A DNA stretch of 64,000 bases from Siphonodentalium dalli. Lineage: Eukaryota > Mollusca > Scaphopoda > Gadilida > Siphonodentaliidae. A program made the translations under genes and the position numbers. The notes beneath the pieces are model-generated. The model did not search any database. It saw only the letters and a program-made list of their open reading frames with translations, and was not told the origin of the DNA. The stretch lies in contig CP136061.1 of assembly GCA_032622095.1 (NCBI GenBank), forward strand, positions 94,671,345-94,735,344, in the 5' to 3' direction. This document shows, piece after piece, positions 12,960 through 49,790 of this stretch (within the stretch, counting starts at the first letter, position 1; every line of letters starts with the position of its first letter).

Positions 12960-14045
12960 ATGCGACTGTTGGTCTAAATCAGCAAAATTCCCCCGATATT
13001 ATATACTGGTTGGGAAATCTATATTATAAAAATCTCAGGGGGGAATCACGTGGTTTCGAGTTGGTGAGTACCACGTATTAAAAATGTGAAAACGCACAAA
13101 AACATAATATATGAGGAACAAAACATAATATATGAGGAACTGACACAAAACATAGCATTTTGACTGTTATGTTTATTTTTAAAACAAGTTGATACCTAAT
13201 TTGTTCGGCAATATATGCAGTAGTTTTCTATAACATTCAGACCAAAGTTGCCAGGCGGAGGTTCGTGAATACACCAGTCCATATATATACATATCAAGGA
13301 GAATCCTTCGACTGACAACTTTGGTCAGAATGTTAAAGCAAACAACTGTGAGTTTGGACACAAATGAGGAATCAGCTGTGACCCGCCATATCAAATCCAG
13401 TCGTAAGTCGGGATTTGTTTACCCTGTGCCAATGCATTCTCTTATATATGCGAGTCGACCATAGGTCGCCTCGCATATATAAGAGAATGCATTGGCCTAA
13501 CAATTTGTTATAATTTTAATAATATTTTCTTGTATTCTTTAACAATTTTATAATTTCACCCATACAGAGCCCCAGACAAACATGAGCAGACGACACTCTT
13601 CTATATGCTTCTATATGTGTGTGGGGCTCACTGCAGGGTAATGGATGTTTTTTATTGTATGTCCTTAAAATTGTAAGAAACATTTATTTTTAAAAAATGA
13701 TAAAAAATTGTTAGGCCAATGCATTCTCTTATATATGCGAGGCGACCTATGGTCGACTCGCATATTTAAGAGAATGCATTGGCACAGGGTAAAAAAATCC
13801 CGACTTACGACTGGATTTGATAGCTGCCAAAATACTATGTAATATATCATTATCCTAGTTTATTATCTTTTCCCTCATTTCTGGTCCGTTTGCGATCGCC
13901 TCGGCCATTTTGAATGCGTGGTACTCATCAACTCGAAACCACGTGATTTCCCCACTGTGAAAATTATGATTGAGAGCAATTTCAACCTTATTGTGAAATA
14001 TCCGACTAAGTTGGGGGGGTTGTTGCTTTTAGACAAATAGTAGTA
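12960..14045. mobile_element. Inverted-repeat element of about 1.1 kb carrying a MITE
   Basis: The arms face each other: ATCACGTGGTTTCGAGTTGG at about 13046 matches the complement of CAACTCGAAACCACGTGAT at about 13930, and a more diverged outer pair (GTTGGTCTAAAT near 12969) matches the complement near 14030. The MITE at 13376-13829 sits in the middle. An open frame crossing the left arm (12686-13081) is not supported as a gene. Confidence 0.6.
13376..13829. mobile_element. MITE of the TGTGACCCGCC family, copy 1
   Basis: Starts TGTGACCCGCCATATCAAAT and runs to ACGACTGGATTTGAT; the extreme right end is changed here. Just inside each end lies the palindromic module CCAATGCATTCTCTTATATA ... AAGAGAATGCATTGG, in opposite orientation at the two ends. 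The centre holds CATACAGAGCCCCAGACAAA. Other copies: 33457-36399 (interrupted) and 47823-48281. Confidence 0.85.
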
Positions 14046-14813: not shown

Positions 14814-14924
14814 CTTGTGTGCACAGATCTCCCGCCCATCCGGTAGTACACGTGCAGGTGAAGCTCCCGTAAGTGTTGGTGCACACCCCGTTGTTACAAG
14901 GATTGGGAGTACACTCGTCATCGT
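14814..14924 (-). CDS. Calcium-binding EGF-like domain (internal exon)
   Basis: This 111 bp exon encodes a second EGF module. It begins with Asp codons and DEC, then NPCNNGVC, CTNTYGSFTC (hydroxylation consensus C-x-N-x4-F-x-C), CTTGWAGDLC and TQ. Six cysteines are in EGF spacing. The acceptor is TTTCAG/ACGATG and the donor CAAG/GTACAT. It is a symmetric 1-1 exon in phase with the module at 16430-16549. A TTAA inverted-repeat element ends 27 bp beyond the donor (at 14786), so only a short piece of original intron separates exon and transposon. No further exon was recognised between here and base 1, so the gene either continues outside the window or its next exons are of an unfamiliar type. 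Confidence 0.93.
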
Positions 14925-16429: not shown

Positions 16430-16549
16430 CTGTATCACATTTAGCTCCTGTCCACCCAGTTTGGCACGTACAACTATACGACTTGGCACTGTTAGTACAG
16501 CTCGAGCCATACACACAGTACTCATATGCAAATCTACATTCATCCAGAT
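16430..16549 (-). CDS. Calcium-binding EGF-like domain (internal exon)
   Basis: This 120 bp exon encodes one EGF module. It starts DLDEC, the calcium-binding signature, and has six cysteines in EGF order (DEC, EYC, SSC, YSC, TC, AKC) ending in GWTGAKCDT. The stretch CTNSAKSYSC fits the Asp/Asn hydroxylation consensus C-x-N-x4-Y-x-C found in calcium-binding EGFs. The acceptor is CATTTCAG/ATCTGG and the donor ACAG/GTATGT. Both borders are phase 1, so the module is a symmetric 1-1 exon, the usual form for shuffled EGF domains. It follows the SRCR exon by about 1.06 kb and is followed by a second EGF exon. Such modules act in extracellular adhesion or receptor proteins. Confidence 0.93.
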
Positions 16550-17605
16550 CTGAAATGAAAGATAGCGTATCACTTATAAAAATAACTCTGGTAAAAGCCA
16601 GGTAAACCATGGTGTACATGACTCTACTCTGGTAAAATATGATAAAGTCAGGTAAACAACGATATACTCTGGTAAAAGCCATGTAAAGTACAAGTCCAAA
16701 TGACATACCCTTATAAAGTCCATGTATATACAAGGCATGGTGTACCCCACTTTACTCTCGTAAAATGTTGGTGAAACAGAATATACATTGGTAAAACCCC
16801 CATGTAAACCCATGTAAATCAACATACTCTGATAAATTCTTGATGGAGTCATGGTGTGACAAATTATACTCTGGTAAAGCCATGTAAAGTCCATGTAAAA
16901 ATGACATACCCTTATAAAGTCCATGTATACAAGGCATGGTGTACCCCACTTTACTCTCGTAAAATGCTGGTGATACATGGGTAAAAACCCATGTAAACCC
17001 ATGTAAACCCATGTAAATCAAAAAAACATACTCTGGTAAATTCTTGATGGAGTCATGGTGTGACAAATTATACTCTGGTAAAGCCATGTAAAGTCCATGT
17101 AAAAAGGACATACCCTTATAAAGTCCATGTAAATGCATGGCTTTGACTCTCGTAAAATGCTGGTGAAACAGGGCATTCATGTGTAAAACCAATGCAAACC
17201 CATGTAAATAAGAACACACTCTGATAAATTATTGATGGAGTAATGTGTGACAAATTACACTCGGGTAAAAGCCATGTAAAGCACATGTAAAAAGGACATA
17301 CCCTTGTAAATTCCAAGAATAGGCATGGAAAAAATTACATCGGTGGGTCTACATGTGTGCATATAATATGGTGACCATTCACTGGATGAATTTTACCAGA
17401 GTGAAATTACCTGGTTCCGAACACCCTGGTATAATACTTCCTTACTAATTGGGTATGTTGGGTGCCCGTGCATGCACATGTATAATAGGAAGGTTTAGTT
17501 AGGCGAAGTTGGAATGGAAGTTTTTCAATCTAATCATCCCTATATTTTACCATTTGCAAAATGTTGTGTGACCGCGTGTGCATACATGTACATGTTATCA
17601 CTTAC
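16550..17605 (-). other. Intron between SRCR and EGF exons, with a tandem array
   Basis: This intron is bounded by GTAAGTG at the SRCR donor and CATTTCAG at the EGF acceptor. Most of it (about 16590-17400) is a degenerate tandem repeat of roughly 200-240 bp containing many short runs such as CTCTGGTAAA, CCATGTAAA and CATACCCTTATAAAG. About four long units are visible. Open frames here only reflect this simple composition and are not coding. Confidence 0.8.
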
Positions 17606-17775
17606 CACACGTGACTCCTGCTTCGTGGTTAGGTCCACAACCACCGATTGTTCCCCATCCATCGTTTGGACAGGCGTCTAGCAGCAGCTCGTCTCCGGTG
17701 CATTCGACCTCATCCAGCCAATAATTGTTGCCGGTGTCAACCGTGTCATAATTTGTATTATCATATGTCCCTGAC
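17606..17775 (-). CDS. SRCR domain, second half (internal exon)
   Basis: This 170 bp exon completes the SRCR domain: NNYWLDEVECTGDELLLDAC, then NDGWGTIGGCGPNHEAGVTC (family pattern IWLDDVQCTG..L..CPH.GWG..NC.H.EDAGV.C). With the preceding exon the domain is about 113 residues with six cysteines and lacks the extra pair of eight-cysteine group B domains. Division over two exons is also typical of group A. The acceptor is TATATTCAG/GTCAGGG and the donor GTGTG/GTAAGTG. The first base G completes the split codon and the last base G starts the Asp of the next exon. A second AG five bases into the exon would break the frame, so I chose the upstream one. Its 5' border is the apparent source of the satellite at 17776-22497. 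Confidence 0.92.
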
Positions 17776-20700
17776 CTGAATATAAAATCGTTGCTGGCTG
17801 TTATAATAGGAGTTATCGTATATGTCCCTGGCCTGAATATAAACTCGTTGCTGGCTGTTATAATAGGAGTTATCGTATATGTCCCTGGCCTGAATATAAA
17901 ATCGTTGCTGGCTGTTATAATTAGGAGTTATCATATTTGTCCCTGGCCTGAATATAAAATCGTTGCTGGCTGTTATAATTGTTACTATTATATAATATAT
18001 GTCCCTGACCTGCATTAAAATCGTTGCCGGCTATATGTTATAATTCTATTATCATATGTCCCTGACCTGCATTAAAATCATTGATAGCTATATGTTATAA
18101 TTCTATTATCATATTTCACTGACTTGCATTAAAATCGTTGACGGCTACTGTATATGTTATAATTGGTATTTTCATACGTACCTACAGTAGTTGACCTGCA
18201 TTAAAATCGTTGACGGCTATATGTTATAATTGTATTATCATATGTCCCTGACTTGCATTAAAATCGTCGACGGCTATATGTTATAATTGTATTATCATAT
18301 GTCCCTGACTTGCATTAAAATCGTTGACGGCTATATGTTATAATTGGAATTATCATATGTCCCTGACCTGCATTAAAATCGTTGACGGATATATGTTATA
18401 ATTGGAATTACCATATGTCCATGACCTGCATTAAAATCGTTGACGGTCATGTTATATAATTGGTACTATCATATGCCCCTAACCTGCATTAAAATCGTTG
18501 CCGGCCATATGTTATAATTGTATTATCATATGTCCCTGACCTTCATGAATTTAAAATCGTTGGCGGCCATGTTATATAATTGTATTGTCATATGTCCCTG
18601 ACCTGCATTAAAATCGTTGACGGCTATATGTTATAATTGCATCATCATATATCCCTGACCTGCATTAAAATCGTTGCCGGCTATATGTTATAATTGTATT
18701 ATCATATGTCCCTGACCTGCATTAAAATCGTTGACGGCTATATGTTATAATTGGTATTTTCATATATCCCTGACCTGCATTAACATCGTTGCCGGCTATG
18801 TGTTATAATTGTATTATCATATGTCCCTGACCTGCATTAAAATCGTTGGCGGCTATATGTTATAATTGTATTATCATATGTCGCTGACCTGCATTAAAAT
18901 CGTTGACGGCCATGTTATATAATTGTATTATCATATGTCCATGACCTGCATTAAAATCGTTGACGGCTATATGTCATAATTGTATTATCATATATCCATG
19001 ACCTGTATTAAAATCGTTGACGGCTATGTGTTATAATTGTATTATCATATGTCCATGACCTGTATTAAAATCGTTGACGGCCATGTTATATAATTGTATT
19101 ATCATATGTCCCTGACCTGCATTAAAATCGTTGATGGCTATGTCACCTATGTGTTATAATTGTATTATCATATGTCATTAACCTGCATTAAAATCGTTGA
19201 TGGCTATGTGTTATAATTGGAATTATCATAATGTCCCCGACCTGCATTAAAATCGTTGCCGGCTATATGTTATAATTGTATTATCATATGTCGCTGACCT
19301 GCATTAAAATCGTTGACGGCCATGTTATATAATTGTATTATCGTATTTCCCTGACCTGCATTAAAATCGTTGCCGGCTATATGTTATAATTGTATTTTCA
19401 TATGTCCCCGACCTGCATTAAAATCGTTGGCGGCTAAATGTTATAATTGTATTATCATATGTCCCTGACCTGCATTGAAATCGTTGACGGCTATGTGTTA
19501 TAATTGTATTATCATATGTCCCTGACCTGCATTAAAATCGTTGATGGCCATGTTATATAATTGTTATTATCATATGTCCCTGACTTACATTAAAATCGTT
19601 GACGGCCATGTTGTATAATTGTTACTATCATATGTCCCTGACTTACATTAAAATCGTTGACGGCCATGTTTTATAATTGTTATTATCATATGTCCCTGCG
19701 TGCATTAAAATCGTTGATGGCTATGTGTTATAATTGGAGTTATCATATGGCCATGACCTGCATTAAAATCGCTGACGGCCATGTTATATAATTGTATTAT
19801 CATATGTCCCTGACCTGCATTAAAATCGTGGACGGCTATGTTATATAATTGGTATTTTCATATGTCCCTGACTTGCATTAAAATCGTTGCCGGCCATGTT
19901 ATATAATTGTATTATCATATGTCCCTGACCTGCATTAAAATCGTTGCCGGCTATGTGTTATAATTGTATTTTCATATGTCCCAGACTTGCATTAAAATCG
20001 TTGACGGCTATATGTTATAATTGTATTATCATATGCCCATGACCTGTATTAAAATCGTTGACGGCCATGTTATATAATTGTTATTATTATATGTCCCTGA
20101 CTTACATTAAAATCGTTGACGGCCATGTTGTATAATTGTTATTATCATATGTCCCTGACTTACATTAAAATCGCTGACGGCCGTATGTTATATAATTGTA
20201 TTATCATATGTCCCTGACCTGCATTAAAATCGTTGACGGCTATGTTATATAATTGGTATTTTCATATGTCCCTGACTTGCATTAAAATCGTTGCCGGCCA
20301 TGTTATATAATTGTATTATCATATGTCCCTGACCTGCATTAAAATCGTTGATGGCTATATGATAATTCCAATCATATCATATAGCCGCCAACGATTTTAA
20401 TACAGGTCATGGACATATGATAATAGAATTATAACACATAGCCGCCAACGATTTTAATGCAGGTCAGGGACATTTGATAATACAATTATATAACATGGCA
20501 GGCAACGATTTTAATGCAAGTCAGGGACATATGAAAATACCAATTATATAACATAGCCGTCAACGATTTTGATGCAGGTCATATGTCCCTGACCTGCATT
20601 AAAATCGTTGGCGGCTATGTGTTATAATTGTATTATCATATGTCCACGACCTGCATTAAAATCGTTGGCGGCTATGTGTTATAATTCTATTATCATATGT

Positions 20701-22497
20701 CCATGACCTGTATTAAAATCGTTGGCGGCTATATGATATAATTGGAATTATCATATGTCCACGACCTGCATTAAAATCGTTGGCGGCTATGTGTTATAAT
20801 TGTTACTCTCAAATGTCCCTGACCTGCATTAAAATCGTTGGCGCCTATGTGTTATAATTGTATTATCATATGTCCCTGACCTGCATTAAAATCGTTGATG
20901 GCCATGTTATATAATTGTATTATCATATGTCCCTGACCTGCATTAAAATCGTTGATGGCTATATGTTATAATTGTATTTTCATATGTCCCAGACTTGCAT
21001 TACAATCGTTGGCGGCTATGTGTTATAATTGTATTATCATATGTCCCTGACCTGCATTAAAATCGTTGATGGCTATATGTTATAATTGTATTATCGTATT
21101 TCCCTGACCTGCATTATAATCGTTGGTGGCTATGTGTTATAATTGTATTATCATATGTCCACGACCTGCATTAAAATCGTTGGCGGCTATGTGTTATAAT
21201 TCTATTATCATATGTCCATGACCTGTATTAAAATCGTTGACGGCTATATGATATAATTGGAATTATCATATGTCCACGACCTGCATTAAAATCGTTGGCG
21301 GCTATGTGTTATAATTGTTACTCTCAAATGTCCCTGACCTGCATTAAAATCGTTGGCGCCTATGTGTTATAATTGTATTATCATATGTCCCTGACCTGCA
21401 TTAAAATCGTTGATGGCTATATGTTATAATTGTATTATCGTATTTCCCTGACCTGCATTATAATCGTTGGCGGCTATGTGTTATAATTGTATTATCATAT
21501 GTCCACGACCTGCATTAAAATCGTTGGCGGCTATGTGTTATAATTCTATTATCATATGTCCATGACCTGTATTAAAATCGTTGGCGGCTATATGATATAA
21601 TTGGAATTATCATATGTCCACGACCTGCATTAAAATCGTTGGCGGCTATGTGTTATAATTGTTACTCTCAAATGTCCCTGACCTGCATTAAAATCGTTGG
21701 CGCCTATGTGTTATAATTGTATTATCATATGTCCCTGACCTGCATTAAAATCGTTGATGGCCATGTTATATAATTGTATTATCATATGTCCCTGACCTGC
21801 ATTAAAATCGTTGATGGCTATATGTTATAATTGTATTTTCATATGTCCCAGACTTGCATTAAAATCGTTGGCGGCTATGTGTTATAATTGTATTATCATA
21901 TGTCCCTGACCTGCATTAAAATCGTTGATGGCTATATGTTATAATTGTATTATCGTATTTCCCTGACCTGCATTATAATCGTTGCCGGCTATGTGTTATA
22001 ATTGTATTATCATATGTCCGCTGACCTGCATTAAAATCGTTGATGGCTATATGTTATAATTGTATTATCGTAAGTCCCCGACCTGCATTAAAATCGTTGC
22101 CGGCTATGTGTTTTAATTGTATTATCATATGTCCCTGACATGCATTAAAATCGTTGATGGCTATATGTTATAATTTTATTATCATATATTCCTGACCTGC
22201 ATTAAAATCGTTGATGGCCATGTTATATAATTGTATTATCATATGTCCCTGACCTGCATTAAAATCGTTGATGGCTCTAATCTAATTATGTTATAATTGC
22301 TATGTTCGTATGCCCCTGGCATGAATAAAAATCGTTGCCGGTTGTGTTATAATTGATTTTATCATAAGTCACTAGCTGACTTGCATTAAAATCGTTGGCG
22401 GCTATATGTTATAATAGTTATGTTCATATGATCCTGACCTGAATAAAAACCGCTGTGTTATAATTTATATTAGCATATGTCCCTGTCCCTGACCTGA
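17776..22497 (-). repeat. Satellite of about 80 units derived from an exon acceptor border
   Basis: Tandem units of about 56-60 bp run for 4.7 kb, abutting the SRCR second-half exon. Read on the minus strand, a unit goes CAACGATTTTAATGCAG then GTCAGGGACATATGATAATAC, the same intron tail, AG and first 20 or so bases as the real exon border. Homology appears to extend some 10 bases further into the exon with small changes. The three or four units nearest the exon keep the exact intron spelling (TTTTATATTCAG); distant units have shifted to TTTTAATGCAG. A block of about four units (roughly 20361-20580) is inverted. A multi-unit pattern including a TGTTACTCTCAAATG variant recurs three times between 20640 and 21680. 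There are no unique spacers, so this is not a CRISPR array. Confidence 0.93.
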
Positions 22498-23375
22498 CAA
22501 ATATTTCAGGAACAAATGACATGCATTATATATTATTGAGTCATGTCACTCGTGGTACATCAGTCTCGTTCAAACTAGACCAAGGTTTCATTATACGATC
22601 AACATCACACGGTGGAATCGATGGAAGGCCGCGCCAAACAACCGAAGGCCGCTCCGAGCACAGGTCCCCAGAACAAAAATTTACCCCACCCCCAATAGTA
22701 CTTAATCATATGATTAAGTAATATTGGGGTAGTGTCAATGTTTGTTCTGGGGACATGCGTGTGGCTCCGAGCAGCCAACGAGGCACTCCGAGTATTTGAG
22801 TCATTTTTAGAGACAGAAATTTAGAATTCCACACTAAACCAAAGATTCAGGACAAATGGAGAGGTTTTTGTTTTAGGTTTTCCAATTAATATTGTTATTG
22901 TTCAGCACGCAGTGTGTAGTGGAATGAGAGACAAAACGATATGGAATGCTGGTGTGTCAACAAAATGGTCACCCAAGACGAAAATACCGGCAGTATTGAC
23001 AACACATTTATTATTTTGCACGGAAAAATACAATAATCGCTATTTACGATTAAATTTACTTGAAGCCAAATATTACCCCAAGCCGCCCCAGAAGTTTTAG
23101 CCCAAAATTCTCCTCAGAATAAGCGCCCGACGGAGTTATAAACCTGAAGGGTTTTACGTTTTGGTACATAAAATGGCACTGATATAGCCCGAGTCTCTCT
23201 GACTCGCAAATGCTATACTTCTTGGTGATGACAAGATGGCACAATTCACATCAAATAAGTTGGCTTACATTGATTGTTGCCTACAGACAATAGCTCAAAA
23301 AATCGGATTGCTTCAATGGCTGCTCGTCGCGGCCTTCGATCGATTCCTCCGTGTGAACATCTAACAGTTGAACGA
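22498..23375. mobile_element. Inverted-repeat element with internal hairpin
   Basis: GATCAACATCACACGGTGGA near 22600 faces the complement of ATTCCTCCGTGTGAACATC near 23342, both beside a GAAGGCCGCG block. Within it, 22664-22753 forms a tight hairpin from GTCCCCAGAACAAA to its complement TTTGTTCTGGGGAC around TTAATCATATGATTAA. No protein seen. Confidence 0.6.
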
Positions 23376-24494
23376 AATGAGATGGAGTCTGGATATTTAT
23401 CAGACTGATTTTACATGAGTTGTAATAATAGTAATGAAATTAGTTTATCGGGCATTGCGGTTCTATTATATTGCGGCCCTTCAGAAATTATTAACAGCCC
23501 GCCTTCGTCGCGGGGCCCATATAGGATGTTGGGCTGTTAATCATGCATGTCGCTCGGTCAGCTACTAAACAGTAATGCCCCCCCCCCCCAATCATGTTAT
23601 TGTTATAGTATTACCACTTTAGAGTGCGTTCTCTTGCAGCTCAACTGTATTTTACGAACACGTTAAGATTCCATACTATTGTGGCGACGTTGGACGGACG
23701 CGAATGATTGGGTTAACTCTTTCAGTGCCAGGGGCCGATCTCATCGGCCCTAATTTACGGTCTGTAAAATCGGCCCTAAAAAAATAAAAAACAAAATATT
23801 TTGTTTATTTTTTTGGGTTGAATTTTGTTTGGGTATGTTTAAGCATGCTATAGCAAATTTAAAAACAAACTTGCTAAAACCTTAGGGGCATGTTATAACT
23901 CAAAACTATCACCAAGTATTCAAAGAGTTAATGAAGAACATGTCATCCTCTTTTGTTCAGTTTCGTACCCAGCTTTCTGTGATACTTAGCGTTATTCAAA
24001 TTTCGAATTACTTATGAGTGGAATTTTGAGGCTAGATTAGTACGCACTAAAGGCTAATTCGAGGACATTAATTAGTTTTTTGTTCTTATAATTATACATT
24101 CAAGTTTATGGCATGCATGTCGACATTTATTCTGATTTCAGGACATATGTTCTCTGCCGACAATTCTTCTCAGGCATTATGTTCAAGCATCGAGACGAAT
24201 ATATAAATGTGAAATTTCATAAAGCTGGATACCCAAATGTAAAGTTTATAAAAGCTGGTAGCCAACTGAAAATTTAGTAATAGCTGGGTACCCAACTGAA
24301 CAGTGCAGTAGCCTTTGTTTTCATTAACGTCCGGTGCCCGATTCCGGTATGCGAGCTAGGACGGAGTGGTAATCATAGTATAGAGCGTTTTATGGTTTAT
24401 TAACGGCCCTCCATTTATGATTGACAGCCATTGGATTGGGCCTATTGACAGCCGCTAATAAACCGTTGCCATCAGTGTTATGTATATAATTGGC
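23376..24494. other. Intronic DNA, no gene recognised
   Basis: AT-rich intron sequence with a short C run (23580-23590) and an inverted pair around 24396-24470 (TTTATTAACGG and its partner near GCTAATAAAC). No coding signal. Confidence 0.5.
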
Positions 24495-27400
24495 ATTTAG
24501 GCACATTAGGCATGAAAGGGGAAAAGTAAGGAAATAAATAGGGGAAAGCTGATTTTTTAAATATTATTTAGGCCATAACATCGCGGATGCGTCACGAAAA
24601 GTCCCCTAAAATCGGAGTTGAGCTTTCGGAGTTAACCAATTTTTTCCAAAAAAAAAAAAAAAAAATTTTAGATTTCACAATCATAGGAATAATGGGATGA
24701 TATAACAATTTTTCAGCCGAAACATATACCAAATGTACTCAATATTGTTCAATACACAATTCTCGAACCAGAGATACACATTCAACGGGGGATTTGAATG
24801 AATTTCGCAAATATGGATATAAAATAACATAATGACCCCAAAAAATGACGTTTTTTTTCAGACAAACTGTCCTATTCGTGTCAAATTTCTCGGGCTATTC
24901 ATTACATAGGCGCAAGCAATTTGTTTTTAAATTGCACAGACATCACTTCTGCAATATAATATGCGGGATTAGCAACTATACCTATGATAAGTGGTCAATA
25001 CTTGTAAAAACATAACCCTACCCCATAAACTGGCTCTCATCACATTTTGCTCTTCCGCTAGTCCAAGTGCTTGTTGTAGAAAACACACCAACAGTGAAAA
25101 TGGTGATTAAAGCATGAAACATGGCACATATGTTCCTTATACGCTACTGCTCATTTTCACATGTGGCGACGGGCTCTTCTTGGCAAAGGTTGCTAGGCAA
25201 CTACACGGCATCGGATTAATGCATATGACTGATATTATATGTGTTCTAACAAACTAAACTACGTCGTGTAGCATTTTTATGGTGAAAATAAATTATTGTT
25301 GTCAGTTTTGACCTGACTGACAAATTACCATATTTCTTACTTACAAGGGGGTGACACACACACAATCTAAAATGCACATATGACTGATATTATGGTAGCT
25401 CTAACAAACTAAACTACACCTAATAGCACCTTTATGTTGAAAACAATTAGAATAGTTGTTGTTAGTGTTGAGCTGGCTGAAAAAAATACCATATAATTCT
25501 TACTTATATGAGTGGTAAATGTTGCCAGGGTCATACCCGAAATACAAAAATGCACATATGACTGATATTATGGTAGTATTAACGTTTCTATGGTGAAAAC
25601 AATTATAAATGTTGTTAGTGTGAGCCTAACCAGAATGTGCTACAAATTTAGTTTTCATATGGGTACAATTATCCGTTATGCTCCATCAGTTCAGATATCG
25701 GGAATTCAAAGTGAGAGTTGAAAAGTTGTTGCTTATATTTAATATGAGGCATGACCATAATAGTTATATAAGCCATAGACCCACACATCTAGATGTATAA
25801 TGTAAGTCACGGACCCACTCTACTAAATATGAAGAACATAGGGTCAGCCACCAATATGTTAGCCATGGGCCACGTCTCTATATGCATACCATATACGTAC
25901 GTCCGTTTTCAGCCATTCGACCAACGCTCTATTGGATGGGTGTCCCATTCGATTGGCCGTGTGCACCACCATAGCTTGGCTATGGACCCAGGCTCATATA
26001 GGTAGGAACTTGAGACGGGCCACTATGGCCAGCCCATGTATCCAGGCTGAGTTAGTTATGACCTTATCCAACAGTTATGACCTTATTACCAGACATTTAC
26101 CCATCCCATGAATGTACATGTTACATGACTATCTAGGTTATAACCACAGCCACGCATACGCCATGGACCCATATGAACACCACATGTAGTGCAAATACAC
26201 AGGTGCCTATAGTTATGAACGCATAACATGTACCCAGGTCTATCCGGCAAATCAATAAAACCAGCCCTAAATAGTATATCATCGGTCCAGGCCCCTTTCT
26301 ATGACATGGACACAGTAGTTAAGACGCGGCATTGGATGCAGTTCCTTAAGCCCCTGTCACACTCAGACCGGCGCTCTCATTGCGCTGCAAAAGTATCAAA
26401 GCGCCCACCTAAACGCACTAAGGTCTCCAAGAACCGATTGGTGACGCAGTGGACACTGGCTACAACGGGCGAGGATCTCCATGGTCGCCCATAGGTGCCA
26501 GAGCGCCGCGCTTGTTTTATGCATGCACAAAACAAGCGCAGAGGCTCGGCGTTCTGACCAGGACGTAGTACTGTCGCCGTGACAGCGCAAAGCAAAGCGC
26601 CAAGCGAGCGACGTGAGCGTTATGTGGACGTAGCAAGAGCGCATATTAGCGTCTCGTGGTCGCAGCAAGAAATTAATCTTGTCTTTTGCGACTACAGTAA
26701 GCTTAATCAAATTCTCACTACGTGCCTTTCCCGTCCTTAATACGCTCAATGAGGCTCTGTCCAAAACTTATTGCGCTCTTTCTGCGCTGTCATGGGGTGT
26801 TATGGGCTGGTTCCCGTCCACATTGTGCTGCCACTGCGACTCTGGCGCTCGCTTTACGCCCAAGCGTTATACATGGCGTTCTTCCGGCGTTTACAGCAGG
26901 TTTACGGTACGATCCCACTTTGAAATGCGGTCTGCTCATATCACTGTCACACTCCGCTGCGATCAGGCTGGTGTTTGCTTTGAGTTGAAAAAGTATCAAA
27001 ATACGAGTAACGCACAGTGGAAGCGCGGAAAATTGTCAGAAATTTTCAATCTGTTAAAACAAGAGAACCAATGTCAGAAATGGTAACGCTCTCAAGATCA
27101 TATATTATAAACCCAAGAAGGTAATTGTAGAATATAAAATATATTGGTTTGCGAATGACCAACTCTAATTAACGAACCAGTGGCCGAATCGACCGTCTCC
27201 GACCACAACCCCCAGTGGGCTGCAGAAATTTCTTTCATTTGTAATTGACATATAGTTTATCACAAACCAAAAATCAACATTAATCAACGTTGATTAACAC
27301 AATAAACGAAATTGAATTTCCCCAACTACACCTTTTACGGGACTCGGCCTCCAGCTCGCAGTTTTAATCATCCCAAAAATTCCCATTCTATAAAACTAAT

Positions 27401-30061
27401 AAAACACCCATTGATAATGTCAACCCGCACGCGAAACGAGAAACTCCCCACCAGTTATACATGCGGCGCGCGTGACAAGCTATGCTCATATCCCGCTTAC
27501 CATATCACGTTTTCATCGCCCACTTTGTACGACCCATTGCGTTCCTGTTTTGTCAAGTCTCACGCTCTCACTGCGTTTCCTCCACGCCGTAAACGCCCTT
27601 AATGCGTTCAAGTCGTTGTCATTGCGTTGTTAGTACGCTTTGCGCTGTCATGGCGACGGTACTACGACTTGTCAGAACGCCGAACCTCTGCGCTTGTTTT
27701 GTGCATGCACAAAACAAGCGCGGCGCTCTGGCGCTCTGGGGCGATCACGGAGACCATCTCCCGTCCTAGCCAGTGTCCACTGCGTCAAAAATACGTTCTT
27801 GGATACCTTACTTCGCTTTGCTTGGCGCTTTGATTATTTTTCAGCGCAATGCATGCGCCGGCCTGATCGCAGCGGAGTGTGACAGTAGTTTAATCGGACA
27901 GCTGATCTATTGCGGAGTGGTGGGTGTTTTCCCCACAACATAAAAACCCACTATGACTGGAGAACGCAGGAGGCGCTATCTGTACTCTCCGCGCCCGCGC
28001 AGAGAACGTTTTGCGAACTTATTGAGAACGTACTAGCATCACAATGACAGCGACTTGAACGCACTAAGAGCGTGAGACTTGACAAAGTAGGAACGCAATA
28101 GGAGCATACTTTGTTTTAAAAGTTTGACAATTTTCGACAGTTTTCGGCGCTCCTCCTGCGTGTTACTCATATGTTGGTACTTTTGCAGCGCAGTGAGAGC
28201 GCCGGCCTGAGTGTGACAGGGGTTTTAGTAACTATGGGTTGGTTTGGGCTGCCCATGTAAATGGGAAATGGTCACCGGTTTCAAAGGGTAGTTCATGTTA
28301 TCTCAGTCTGAAATATATAGGCCACGCTCATGTCCGAACTCCTATAGACTTGTAAATGACTCATGACCATGTACTGACATATATGTAGTTATGGCATGGA
28401 TAGGACGGAAACACAGTTAGTTCCTACCGTACAGCAACTAGTATGCGAATGCTACCACACCGTGCGTAATAAAGTGTTCTGCATGGATGCCATTGCCAAA
28501 TGTAGTGCGAATGTCCGATTTCATGGGGGGATTCAGGTGGTATCGACATACATGTGGGTCAATATTTTTACATGTCTCATTAAAATGTATTCCAACAATA
28601 GATTGATGGAAGAAACAATAATAAACTCCACACAGGTATGTGATTATGATAAAATTAACTGAATAGTCTGTCAGTTTAAAGAATATTTGTCAATGGTAGG
28701 TGGTAACCTAGCAACAATGAAACCTCAATACCAATTTGCCGCATGAGAATCACGCGAGAATGCATCAGTACACAATACAACAACCTTTGGTTATGCATTA
28801 TGGTCAATATAAGCATAATATGGCATATTATGAAACAATTATATCATGTAAATTTCCAGAAACTAATACCATATTATGAAACAGTTATATCAGTTAAATT
28901 ACCAGAAACTCATTCTTGGTATGTTTTCAAAGGTGGACATGTCCATAGCAACCACTACACCACCCGTTAGGTAACGAATGCGGCAACTTTACTGTCATGT
29001 TCACACTAACAACAATTATAATAATTGTTTTCAATATAAAAATGTTACATGACGTAGTTTAGTTTGTTAAAACTACCATAATATCAGTCATGTGTGCATT
29101 TTTCGATGTCTGGTATGTCCCTAGCAACCGTTACCAGAAATATATAGTAATATTTAAAGTCGAACCAACACTAACAATAACTATTATAATTGTTTCACCA
29201 TAAAATGACAATGACGTAGTTTATATTAGTTTGTCAAAACTACCATAATATCAGTCAGCTCGGCATTTTTCGATTTAGGGTATGTCCCTAGCAACCGTTA
29301 CCACCCCTGTAAGTAATAAATATGGTAATTTTCCAGCCAGATCCACTCTAACAACAACTACTATTATTTTCACAATAAAAATGCTGCATGACGTAGGTTA
29401 GATTGTTAAAACTGCCATAATAAAAGTCATAATTGCATTTCTTCGATGTGGGACAGTTGCATAGCAACCGTTGCCAAGGAATGACCTGCCGCGATGTCTA
29501 CACATCTGAAAATGATTAATAGTGTATAAGGAACCTATGTGCCAAGTTTCATAGTGTTATCACCATTTGCACAATTGTTACGCCAAACGCCATGACTATT
29601 ATGTGGTATTTTTGCCTTTCAGACACTCAAAGCCATGGCGTACGTTTTAGGGGGTAGTGTTATGTTTCCGGCTATACAATCTTAAGGTCTTTTGTTAGGA
29701 AATTTTTTAATCACAATGCGATTTATATGCTCTCTTCGGCAATAAATGTCATCACAATTATGGAATATCGACTGTTAGTAAGCTCTAGCATCAATTACGC
29801 ATATATATCGACACCTGCTCCATGATGGACTGGAATGTGTGAAGATTTAGTCCATAAATTAGCCTACATATGACTGCATTCGCATATGGTTTAATGGAAT
29901 TTCGTCAGAATTTGCACCATTACGAAAAATCATGATATCTCAAAAAGCTCAACTCGGATTCTAGGGGACTTTTGCCAAGTTGTACATAAACATGTTCTTA
30001 TTAATCCCTGAAAAATTCAGCTTTCCCCTATTTTTTGCCGTAGTGAAACCTAATGTGCCTG
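24495..30061. repeat. Large fold-back: two inverted arms around a GC-rich core
   Basis: The left arm (24495 to about 25720) is the diverged complement of the right arm (about 28690-30061). Shared landmarks are GGCACATTAGG, ATAGGGGAAAGCTGA, GTTCCTTATAC and CGGTTGCTA or their complements. Each arm has about three internal units of roughly 175 bp carrying ACTGATATTATGGTAG, AACTAAACTACGTC and TAGTTGTTGTTAGTG. Between the arms lie less clearly inverted segments and the GC-rich element at 26351-28222. No transposase was recognised. Confidence 0.75.
26351..28222. mobile_element. GC-rich non-autonomous inverted-repeat element
   Basis: Ends are CCCCTGTCACACTCAGACCG and its near-exact complement CGGCCTGAGTGTGACAGGGG, continuing for about 45 bp through GGCGCTCTCA. 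Subterminal inverted pairs include AAACAAGCGCGGCGCT-type blocks (about 26500 and 27715, each with a GCATGCACAAAACAAGCGC core) and GTGTGACAGT near 27877. Base composition is far more GC-rich than the surroundings. Several open frames run through it on both strands but share these repeats and look like composition shadows. No clear target duplication. Confidence 0.8.
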
Positions 30062-30412
30062 GACTAATTATCACATGTCCCTGACCTGCAAATCCAGAGG
30101 TCGCGTCAGCCAAATCAAATATAAAGGTCAAATATGAGTAGTATATCATTGGAAATGACTTTGAGAAAAATAACGGTGTATAATAAACTTTTGCGCAACC
30201 GAAATCATAATTATATATAGATAAATCAGCATATACATGTATATAACCAACCAACAACGGCCGATAACACGATCAGATGGACCGGACCAGAAAGTACAGG
30301 ACCGGACGGTTGGACCTATCCAAGGCGGTCCAGCGATGGCGGCCCGGTCTGCGGTCCAGGGCTGAACCGCCGACCGGATCGGCATATAGCGGTCCAGCCT
30401 GTATCCCCATTA

Positions 30413-30684
30413 TAGGGTTCATACGGTGGAACTCACGTATAACCAAGTTGTTTGCACACCACGTTCGCGCCATTGTCGTTAATACGGTGGAAACTCACGT
30501 ATAACCTAGTTGTTTGCGCACCACGTTCGCGCCGTTGTCGTTAATACGGTGGAAACTCACGTATAACCAAGTTGTTTGCACACAACGTTCGCGCCGTTGT
30601 CGTTAATACCGTGGAAACTCACGTATAACCAAGTTGTTTGCACACTATGTTCGCGCCCTTGTCGTTAATACCGTGGAAACTCAC
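30413..30684 (-). repeat. Four 62 bp tandem copies of an exon end with splice donor
   Basis: The 62 bp unit contains the last roughly 38 bases of the SRCR first-half exon (codons for NGANVVCKQLGYT), the donor GTGAGT and a short intron piece. ACTCACGT on the plus strand marks the donors at about 30431, 30493, 30555 and 30617; the genuine one is at 30679. The copies differ by only a few bases, so the expansion looks recent. Reading past the true donor meets TGA at once (ACG TGA), so only the first donor gives a productive product. Confidence 0.92.
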
Positions 30685-30853
30685 GTATAACCAAGTTGTT
30701 TGCACACCACGTTCGCGCCGTTGTGGTTGTCCTTGAACTTGTCTTTGCATAAAGCTCTCCAGTCGTTGTTGTAATATATCTCCACCGCACCCTCAGCATA
30801 TTCTGTCGTCACAGTTGAGCCTGTACCTGATATTCTAAGTTGATATGATTGAC
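30685..30853 (-). CDS. SRCR domain, first half (internal exon)
   Basis: This 169 bp exon encodes the N-terminal half of a scavenger receptor cysteine-rich domain: a LRISGTG strand, AEGAVEIYYNNDWRALC (family pattern GRVEVYHNGQWGTVC), then GANVVCKQLGYT (family pattern ANVVCRQLGF). The acceptor reads TTTTACAG and the donor GGTTATAC/GTGAGT. The exon opens with two bases of a split codon (phase 1) and ends with AC, which the exon at 17606-17775 completes to ACG (Thr). SRCR domains are extracellular ligand-binding modules. The last codons and donor are copied four more times just downstream in the transcript. A TTAA element begins only about 25 bp before the acceptor. No upstream exon was recognised. 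The domain call is strong; the parent protein is unknown. Confidence 0.9.
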
Positions 30854-33854: not shown

Positions 33855-36366
33855 CAGGGGGGGGGGGGGTGAAAAAAAAAATTCCGGCACGTACGCCGGG
33901 GTGGGTGGTTATGAAAGCGTATTGGTGCCATTTTTAAAATAAAAATTTGCCCAGTAAGTGCTAATTAGCACATACGTATCAGCTAATTAGCTGATAATAA
34001 CAGCTAATTAGCACATAGTAAGTGCTAATTAGCACATACATATCAGCTAATTAGCTGATAATAACAGCTAATTAGCTGATAATATCAGCTAATTAGCACA
34101 TACGTATCAGCTAATTAGCTGATAATAACAGCTAATTAGCACATAGTAAGTGCTAATTAGCACATACATATCAGCTAATTAGCTGATAATAACAGCTAAT
34201 TAGCTGATAATATCAGCTAATTAGCACATACGTATCAGCTAATTAGCTGATAATAACAGCTAATTAGCACATAGTAAGTGCCAATTAGCACATACATATC
34301 AGCTAATTAGCTGATAATAACAGCTAATTAGCTGATAATATCAGCTAATTAGCACATACGTATCAGCTAATTAGCTGATAATAACAGCTAATTAGCTGAT
34401 AATATCAGCTAATTAGCACATACGTATCAGCTAATTAGCTGATAATAATTTTCGAGAACGGTAAGGATTTCGACCGATTTGACGGCATGGGTGGATGGCC
34501 GGCCCCAAATACCACCTAGAAACACCCCGACCCCCACCCATCACCCCGGGGGTGCCACCCCGAGGTGGTGAAAATTGGGTATGGACCATTTTCGAGAACG
34601 GTAAGGATTTCGACCGATTTGACGGCATGGGTGGGTGGCCGGCCCCAAATACCACATAGAAACACCCCGACCCCCCACCCATCTCCCCGGGGGGGTGCCA
34701 CCCCGAGGGGGTGAAAATGGGGTATGGACCATTTTCGAGAACGGTAAGGATTTCGACCGATTTGACGGCATGGGTGGGTGGCCGGCCCCAAATACCACCT
34801 AGAAACACCTCGACCCCCACCCATCACCCCGGGGGGTGCCACCCCGAGGGGGTGAAAATGGGGTATGGACCATTTTCGAGAACGGTAAGGATTTCGACCG
34901 ATTTGACGGCATGGGTAGGTGGCCGGCCCCAAATACCACCTATAAACACCCCGACCCCCACCATCACCCCCGGGGGGTGCCACTCGAGGGGGTGAAAATG
35001 GTGTATGGACCATTGTCGAGAACGGTAAGGATTTCGACCGATTTGACGGCATGGGTGGGTGGCCGGCCTCAAATACCATCTAGAAACACCCCGACCCCAC
35101 CATCACCCCCGGGGGTGCCACCCCGAGGGGGATGAAAATGGGGTATTGGTCGGGGTGTTTCTAGGTGGTATTTGGGGCGGCCACCCACCCATGCCGTCAA
35201 ATCGGTCGAAATCCTTACCGTTCTCGAAAATGGTCCATACCCCATTTTCACCCCCTCGGGGTGGCACCCCCCGGGGTGATGGTGGGGGGTCGGGGTGTTT
35301 CTAGGTGGTATTTGGGGCCGGCCACCCACCCATGCCGTCAAATCGGTCTCGAAAATCATTATCAGCTAATTAGCTGATACGTATGTGCTAATTAGCTGAT
35401 ATTATCAGCTAATTAGCTGTTACTATCAGCTAATTAGCTGATACGTATGTGCTAATTAGCTGATATTATCAGCTAATTAGCTGTTATTATCAGCTAATTA
35501 GCTGATATGTATGTGCTAATTAGCACTTACTATGTGCTAATTAGCTGTTATTATCAGCTAAATAGCTGATACGTATGTGCTAATTAGCTGATATTATCAG
35601 ATAATTAGCTGTTATTATCAGCTAATTAGCTGATATTTATGTATGTGCTAATTAGCACTTACTATGTGCTAATTAGCTGTTATTATAGGTTAATTAGCTG
35701 ATACGTATGTGCTAATTAGCTGATATTATCAGCTAATTAGCTGTTATTATCAGCTAATTAGCTGATATGTATGTGCTAATTAGCACTTACTATTTGCTAA
35801 TTAGCTGGGCCAATTTTTTTTTCCAAAATGGCACCAATACGCTTCCATAGGTGGTCAAAGCAACCAACAAGCTATTTTTTCCGCAACTAAAAAAAAAATT
35901 CCTGCTTGTTTTTTAGTGTTTTGGCAACGAGTTGGGCTTCAAACCCACTTTGAATGAGAGAACTACTGTAATTCTAACTGTAAACTGACTGCAGGCAGTT
36001 ATCGTGTTGTATTTTGTTGCAAATTTTGAAATCCAAGATGGCCGCTGGCAGCCATGTTTTTTTGGCCGAATGACCTCAAAATGACTCATTCCTATTTACA
36101 TGTCCATGTTAACATCCATGATAAATAGTATGCACAGAAATTCATATACAGTTGTTTACAGTGAATTTCCCCCCGCAAATCTCTGTTTTAGTGTTAAAAG
36201 GGGGGGTGGGTGTCAAAAAATGGTCGGAAAAAACTGCTGAAAACGGAAAAAAATTTGGCGGTGGGGGTGGGTGGGTACAAAAATGATCGAAAGGGAAAAA
36301 ATGCCATACATGCCTGAATTTTTTTTCCGACCCCCCCCCCCCCCCCGCCCCCCCCCCCCCCCCCTG
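33855..36366. mobile_element. 2.5 kb hAT-like element with 7 bp target duplication
   Basis: Starts CAGGGG in a G run and ends CCCCTG in a C run. The inner termini match as inverted repeats (TGAAAAAAAAAATTCCGGCA against TGCCTGAATTTTTTTTCC). GTCTTCC occurs immediately on both sides (33848-33854 and 36367-36373) and once only in intact MITE copies (in the form GACTTCC), so it is a target duplication. CAGGG ends fit hAT elements, although those usually duplicate 8 bp. The interior is two opposed repeat arrays with no protein. Confidence 0.8.
33953..35815. repeat. Giant palindrome of GCTAATTAGC and 141 bp arrays
   Basis: The left arm has a field of CAGCTAATTAGCTGATAATA repeats (33953-34447), then five units of about 141 bp (34447-35150, marked by TTTCGAGAACGGTAAGGATT). 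The right arm has about one and a half units inverted (35150-35352), then an inverted field of the AATTAGC repeats (35355-35805). The 141 bp unit is G/C-rich and itself has palindromes such as CACCCCGGGGGGTG. Frames through it look long on both strands because unit lengths keep phase; they do not resemble proteins. Confidence 0.9.
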
Positions 36367-48760: not shown

Positions 48761-49790
48761 TTAAAGGTGGATTATCTCTTTGTAAACATGTATGGTATAG
48801 TTACCAGGGTATAAAGGTGGATTATCTCTTTGTAAACATGTATGATATAGATACCAGGGTATAAAGGTGGATTATCTCTTTGTAAACATGTATGGTATAG
48901 TTACCAAGGGTATAAAGGTGGATTATCTCTTTGTAAACATGTATGATATAGTTACCAGGGTATAAAGGTGGAGTATATCTTTGTAAACCATGTATGATAT
49001 AGTTACGGGGTACAAAGGTGGATTATCTCTTTATAAACATGTATGATATAGTTACCAGGGTATAAAGGTGGATTATCTCTTTGTAAACATGGTATATATA
49101 GTTACCGGGGTATAAAGGTGGATTATCTCTTTGTAAACATGTATGATATAGTTACCGGGTATAGAGGTGGATTATCTCTTTGTAAACATGTATGATATAA
49201 TTACCAGGGTATAAAAGGTGGATTATCTCTTTGTAAACATGTACTATATAGCTACCGGGGTATAAAGGTGGATTATCTCTTTGTAAACATGTATTATATA
49301 GTTACCAGGGTATAAAATATTAGATCTGAATCGAAGACTCCTGTCCGGAAATGCTTCTATCGATTAATATTTATTTTATTTCGAATATGTTTCTGGTCTG
49401 AAAATGTGTGGTTGTTGGCTAACGAACAATAGTAGTTACTGTTAACAGAGACCAGAAATTTTATTATGTAATTTTGTCACAAATAAACATTAATTATACC
49501 CATTATCGCTTATAACTATGGAATAAACAATACAACCAATCAATCTTGTACATTTGACGTTCGGTGCGTAGCTATAGAAACAGCCTAATGCCTTCTATCG
49601 CTATATGGTATCACCCGAATGGTCTGTTCTACAAAATAGACAAATAAACGGGCCCAATAAAATATTCGAAATAAAATCAATATTAATTGATAGAAGCCCT
49701 TTCCGGACAGGGGGTCTTCAGTTCATATTGATTATTTAATACACACGCAACTATTCAACTTTGATATTTAAAGAGATAATCCATCTTTAA
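48761..49790. mobile_element. TTAA-flanked element whose left end is tandemly amplified
   Basis: Left end TTAAAGGTGGATTATCTCTT; right end AAGAGATAATCCATCTTTAA. A second inverted pair lies further in (TCTGAATCGAAGACTCCTGT near 49325 against 49700-49730). Between 48765 and 49316 about 11 units of roughly 50 bp each begin with the terminal sequence AAAGGTGGATTATCTCTTTG, followed by AACATGTATGATATAG. No protein seen. Confidence 0.83.

Follow-up and report, generated by a model that had tools for sequence, protein, structure and literature searches.

Minisatellites that extend across an exon–intron boundary have been described before, and the closest systems are the 'mirage' minisatellites of lancelets. 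Mirages were reported in Adh3, the globins BflGb6 and BflGb9, TnC, and PGBD5 (PMC3087553, PMC3902484), with PGBD5 added and TnC cited by the latter source, and they occur at either the 5' or the 3' intron boundary (PMC3087553, PMC3902484). In human CBS, a 31-bp variable number tandem repeat (VNTR) is named c.1444_1467+7(16_21) (PMC2630376). Human segmental duplications contain internal tandem repeats at exon–intron boundaries, which can alter splicing (PMC2812944), and an intron of potato RdRp was gained through tandem duplication across an acceptor (PMC4974935). Border-spanning minisatellites have been proposed as a substrate from which introns could be gained through tandem duplication. Here, we analyzed a stretch of 64,000 nucleotides from the scaphopod Siphonodentalium dalli (contig CP136061.1, positions 94,671,345 to 94,735,344; hereafter the window), in which one intron splitting an SRCR domain carries a tandem array at each of its two borders. 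These arrays very probably arose on the spot as two independent mirage-type minisatellites, which would be tolerated because splicing removes them. They represent a known kind of repeat, here in a large example.

The gene is encoded on the minus strand, as are all of its features given below unless otherwise stated. Exon A (30685..30853; 169 nt, starting in phase 1 and ending in phase 2) encodes the N-terminal half of the SRCR domain (GQSYQLR...CKQLGYT), and exon B (17606..17775; 170 nt) encodes the C-terminal half (SGTYDNTNYD...GVTCG), so that the first base of exon A is 30853 and the last base of exon B is 17606. The intervening intron (17776..30684; 12,909 bp) is in phase 2, and the outer introns are in phase 1. 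Joined together, the two exons provide 113 codons in frame. The product scored 75.3 bits against Pfam SRCR PF00530 (cut-off 26.1; E 5e-21; residues 18–113), indicating a complete SRCR domain, and was matched by 26 PDB sequences, including M130 (CD163), MARCO, and DMBT1. A search of a large protein collection for homologues gave three candidates, none of them at E 0.001. All splice sites of the gene are predicted from the DNA sequence, including the putative real 5' splice site, GTGAGT, at 30679..30684.

The acceptor border is continued into the intron by an array at 17777..22488, in which we recognized 82 units of ~57 bp, close to the ~80 copies of intron end plus exon start stated in the original prediction. 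Each unit comprises ~25 nt read as intron end (...TTTTAATGCAG) followed by ~32 nt from the start of the exon. We derived a profile from three units and searched the window with it, counting matches of >12 bits within the array as units. It returned 92 matches: the 82 units, exon B, a 16-nt scrap within the array (9.9 bits), and eight matches elsewhere in the window, all weak (≤9.5 bits). Exon B was scored as a further, diverged copy (23.9 bits, E 3e-6). The orientation is that of the gene in 78 units, while four units (20354..20576, plus strand, by profile search) are inverted, two of them overlapping at the inversion edge.

The similarity between the units and the exon extends to the exon bases themselves. 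Over the first 32 bases of exon B, which form the seed of the acceptor unit, 30 of 32 columns are shared with the consensus of the units. The local alignment score of 52 was equaled by none of 2000 dinucleotide shuffles (mean 14, maximum 26), and the reverse complement scored 13. Both u01, the unit nearest to the exon (score 28, shuffle maximum 24), and u82, the outermost unit (score 47, shuffle maximum 26), surpassed all 2000 shuffles. The identity of the remaining ~25 nt of the unit to the exon is just 0.29–0.54; this part lacks clear exon similarity and is best read as the intron end. We also considered a unit derived wholly from the exon, since the nhmmer match spans 54 exon bases, but rejected it in view of the low identity of the second half, and we claim exon origin for only 32 nt. 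Among the 79 aligned units (three of the 82 were left out), 61 retain the G of the acceptor AG.

The donor border is likewise repeated. The array at 30417..30728 consists of five 62-bp copies, which are the real border and four extra copies, and each unit combines ~35–40 nt of exon end with 22–27 nt of donor and intron start. GTGAGT is found at 30684, 30622, 30560, 30498, and 30436 and is intact in all five cases; the first is the real donor, leaving exactly the four additional copies that had been predicted. The profile search of the window detected no acceptor-profile match in the donor array, and the two arrays therefore look unrelated, as originally proposed. The CBS VNTR offers a parallel: read from its name, it repeats the last 24 exon bases and the first 7 intron bases at a donor 16 to 21 times (PMC2630376). 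It differs in being confined to the donor, polymorphic in people, and located in an unrelated gene.

The lancelet mirages and the SRCR arrays have in common a minisatellite-like tandem duplication across an exon–intron boundary, with the extra copies in the intron. AG or GT is kept by many but not all mirage units, and the same holds here (61/79 for the G of AG, 5/5 for donors). Either boundary can be affected in mirages; here, both are affected, in one intron. Mirages are further marked by copy numbers that vary between haplotypes and by normal splicing of the mRNA; the two haplotypes described for BflGb6 have six and three units, compared with 82 in the SRCR acceptor array. Edge units that escape homogenization are known from BflGb6, and most edge units here behave alike: u01–u04, u80, and u82 have a TATTCA tail, most interior units have AATGCA, and the interior type is also carried by u79 and u81, which lie near the outer edge as well. 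Such a difference in tails is what one would expect if edges escape homogenization. The mirage pattern of concerted evolution inside with the edges excluded is thus seen in the unit tails and in block duplications, judged without a tree. The host genome is of a different kind: Branchiostoma has ~0.5 Gb on ~19 chromosomes, unlike the 2.2 Gb in nine contigs here.

The block duplications occupy 20603..21861. Comparison at fixed lags gave identity at 300 of 300 positions for a lag of 859 bp and 99.3% for lags of 515 and 344 bp; a megablast self-comparison printed no block pairs, but the direct comparison did find them. They point to recent turnover of the acceptor array. Since tandem arrays are prone to misassembly, and some blocks are identical over 300 bases, one might suspect that the assembly inflated or collapsed the array or its copy number. 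Against this, most units have diverged and form a mosaic that includes an inverted block, and similar arrays occur at independent places, which makes an assembly artefact extremely improbable.

We examined whether the repeats occur elsewhere in the 2.2-Gb genome. The acceptor unit gave 44 matches and the donor region one match, all at the SRCR locus; because the search skips very common words, this single-locus result is strong, not absolute. A dispersed satellite that invaded the border was rejected on these grounds. Growth of both arrays from their exon–intron borders is supported by this result, by the normal length of the SRCR domain, and by the apparent exon start at the same position in five relatives, described below.

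A related possibility is that the satellite came first and the exon start was captured from the array by exonization or gene conversion. Exon B is indeed nearer to the interior consensus (30/32 columns) than is its neighbor u01 (25/34), and the segment concerned is just ~11 codons in a variable loop, which leaves room for a small effect of gene conversion. The privacy of the unit to this locus and the complete SRCR score argue against capture, as do the normal length of a spacer within the domain and the apparently shared position of the intron. The spacer from LGY to W is 19 residues here, compared with 18 (n = 16) or 15 (n = 2) in 18 distinct single-exon SRCR sequences, which were chosen by motif in fetched loci. 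In five relatives (L010, L012, L013, L016, and L019), inspection by eye pointed to an AG followed by an exon start at the matching position and in the same phase, with spacers of ~17 to 22; only L010 and L019 showed the N-terminal half within the same locus. In other relatives, such as L020, L021, and L024, the SRCR domain lies on a single exon. The apparently shared exon start in the five relatives suggests that the border is probably old and that the array grew from it, and a satellite-first origin appears highly improbable.

For arrays born at the borders, the following course is likely. At the acceptor of the old SRCR intron, ~25 nt of intron end and 32 nt of exon start would have been duplicated in tandem, and at the donor, ~35–40 nt of exon end and 22–27 nt of intron start. 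Further copies would have arisen via slippage or unequal exchange, together with block duplication. Selection would keep the copy joined to the coding exon functional, and the other copies, being intronic, would be spliced out and free to evolve. After a duplication over a border, the copy next to the exon would be the one used, leaving the rest intronic, and extra copies within the exon would disrupt the protein. The original prediction had noted the shared design, a duplicated border on the intron side of its real exon, and had suggested that amplification of both borders may reflect a process acting there. The anatomy is as described at both borders, but geometry explains the placement: extra copies lie on the intron side because only intronic copies are spliced out and tolerated.

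It is also possible, and compatible with a mirage origin, that the repeated splice sites have been selected as a device for splice choice, giving SRCR isoforms or slower splicing. The 57-nt unit preserves the frame, the 51 codons (~2.7 units) upstream of exon B are open, and the G of AG is retained in 61 of 79 units; SRCR proteins are, moreover, often immune receptors. Farther upstream, in contrast, the frame is closed, with 134 stops up to 22560, and any later donor would add TGA directly after LGYT. The acceptor G is also less conserved (0.77) than the mean column (0.915). Selection for splice choice is therefore very unlikely.

In addition, we searched for arrays derived from borders at other SRCR genes, as the original prediction had suggested. 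At first look, the genome contained 593 SRCR candidates, of which 150 were scored. Large clusters are located at 66.9–67.1 and 144.58–144.95 Mb of contig C5, 2.2–5.0 Mb of C1, and 236.5–237.1 Mb of C3. On C5, minus-strand matches at ~144.58–144.63 Mb and plus-strand matches at ~144.70–144.80 Mb have identical scores, as in an inverted duplication. We examined 45 other SRCR loci, consisting of the 15 closest relatives and 30 of the 150 scored matches, and found a tandem array over an exon edge in three of them (L011, L016, and L017). All three belong to the closest relatives (3 of 30 edges, compared with 0 of 60 in the other set), and all are donor-border arrays; no multi-copy acceptor array was detected among the 45 loci. 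L011 has a 112-bp repeat with at least four copies and partly decayed donors. L016 (1580–2004) and L017 (1580–2146) have 47-bp repeats, with 9 and 12 units according to Tandem Repeats Finder (TRF), and their unit is largely exon end plus a GTAAGT donor. The latter two are paralogous, lie 365 kb apart, and share 93.9% identity in an alignment of 1,997 columns covering the exon and the array, so that the difference in copy number is between paralogous places, not between haplotypes of one locus. L011 on the one hand and L016/L017 on the other are two independent cases. The repeats of human segmental duplications resemble the SRCR arrays in placing minisatellite units at the borders of genes that were duplicated recently; they differ in averaging 30 bp × 4, in varying between paralogues, and in being supported by transcripts (PMC2812944).

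Does a process act at the splice borders themselves? Such a process, envisaged in the original prediction and linked to R-loops or lariat-linked breaks during splicing or transcription, would prefer borders, and one cause would have hit both ends of the intron. The two affected borders of one intron, the donor-border arrays in two more SRCR groups, and the lancelet mirages published at both 5' and 3' boundaries (PMC3087553) all favor this idea. Nevertheless, edges of SRCR matches lay within TRF arrays in 3 of 90 cases, compared with 6.6% of 9000 random flank points, and self-similarity was detected at 22 of 90 edges, compared with 37 of 180 random flank windows, in what is a weak test of borders, being restricted to mutually related SRCR loci and to match ends instead of mapped splice sites. 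On these counts, SRCR borders are not over-represented in arrays.

The 22 self-similar edges might at first sight suggest many border arrays, but only three are true arrays, those of L011, L016, and L017. Twelve belong to six C5 loci with one lag at both edges, which presumably reflects neighboring SRCR exons. Five (L076, L077, and L081–L083) share one paralogue pattern; L081, the one inspected, contains a decayed partial SRCR copy that lies upstream of the exon. Of the others, that of L085 is a repeat starting just beyond the donor, and that of L013 is a dispersed element.

Chance alone would produce a number of introns with both borders affected. Tandem repeats make up 17% of the window (10% once the two border arrays are excluded) and 6.1% of the 45 SRCR loci. 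At ~3% per border, both borders would be hit in ~0.1% of introns, or ~100 cases per assumed 100,000 introns, which is a rough estimate. With SRCR match edges not enriched in arrays and an intron-side position that follows from geometry, a border-directed process is decidedly unlikely, and splice borders probably play no special role. A broader version of the idea would make the arrays a lineage-wide trait: borders of the expanded SRCR family, donors and acceptors alike, would repeatedly and recently have become mirage arrays, hit more often than other intron sequence through a splicing-linked mechanism and providing spare splice sites for new introns or isoforms. We regard this version as very unlikely.

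Several points weigh against two independent, spliced-out minisatellites. That both borders of one intron are affected is still a notable coincidence. The control draws on SRCR loci and match ends, several of them tens of bases away from the actual border, and in the 15 closest-relative loci one of the two match ends falls within the exon. For three of the five split relatives, no N-terminal half was located, so that their intron position is presumed. Moreover, the evidence is the sequence of one individual of one species; correct splicing is a prediction, and length instability a possibility.

In potato RdRp, as here, a duplication over an intron–exon boundary yields spare splice signals (PMC4974935); there, however, one duplication led to a new intron, while this locus carries numerous copies without any indication of intron gain. 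With several such arrays at SRCR exons, one case affecting both borders of an intron, this genome is well suited to asking how the spliceosome chooses among many near-identical splice sites and whether such arrays turn into introns. It also calls for caution, as exon-like repeat units need not be exons. A limited search of freely accessible literature met no report of SRCR border arrays, which does not show their absence from print.

Downstream of exon B, the gene continues with an EGF_CA exon (16430..16549) and a second EGF exon (14814..14924), for both of which TRF lists no border array. The window contains other repeats as well. Further tandem arrays are present at 16663–17315 (204 bp × 3.3) and 48762–49316 (50 bp × 11). 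A MITE-like (miniature inverted-repeat transposable element-like) element at 13389–13822 has 129-nt inverted arms and internal palindromes (GCCAATGCATTCTCTTATATATGCGAG...), and L013, which lies on a different contig, contains a closely similar stretch. A palindromic element of 1.85 kb (33953–35807) has arms of ~300 nt (34162–34460 and 35344–35642) that are 98% complementary and consist largely of 64/128-bp tandem repeats (GCTAATTAGC...); it also contains a 140-bp × 5 array at 34448–35146.

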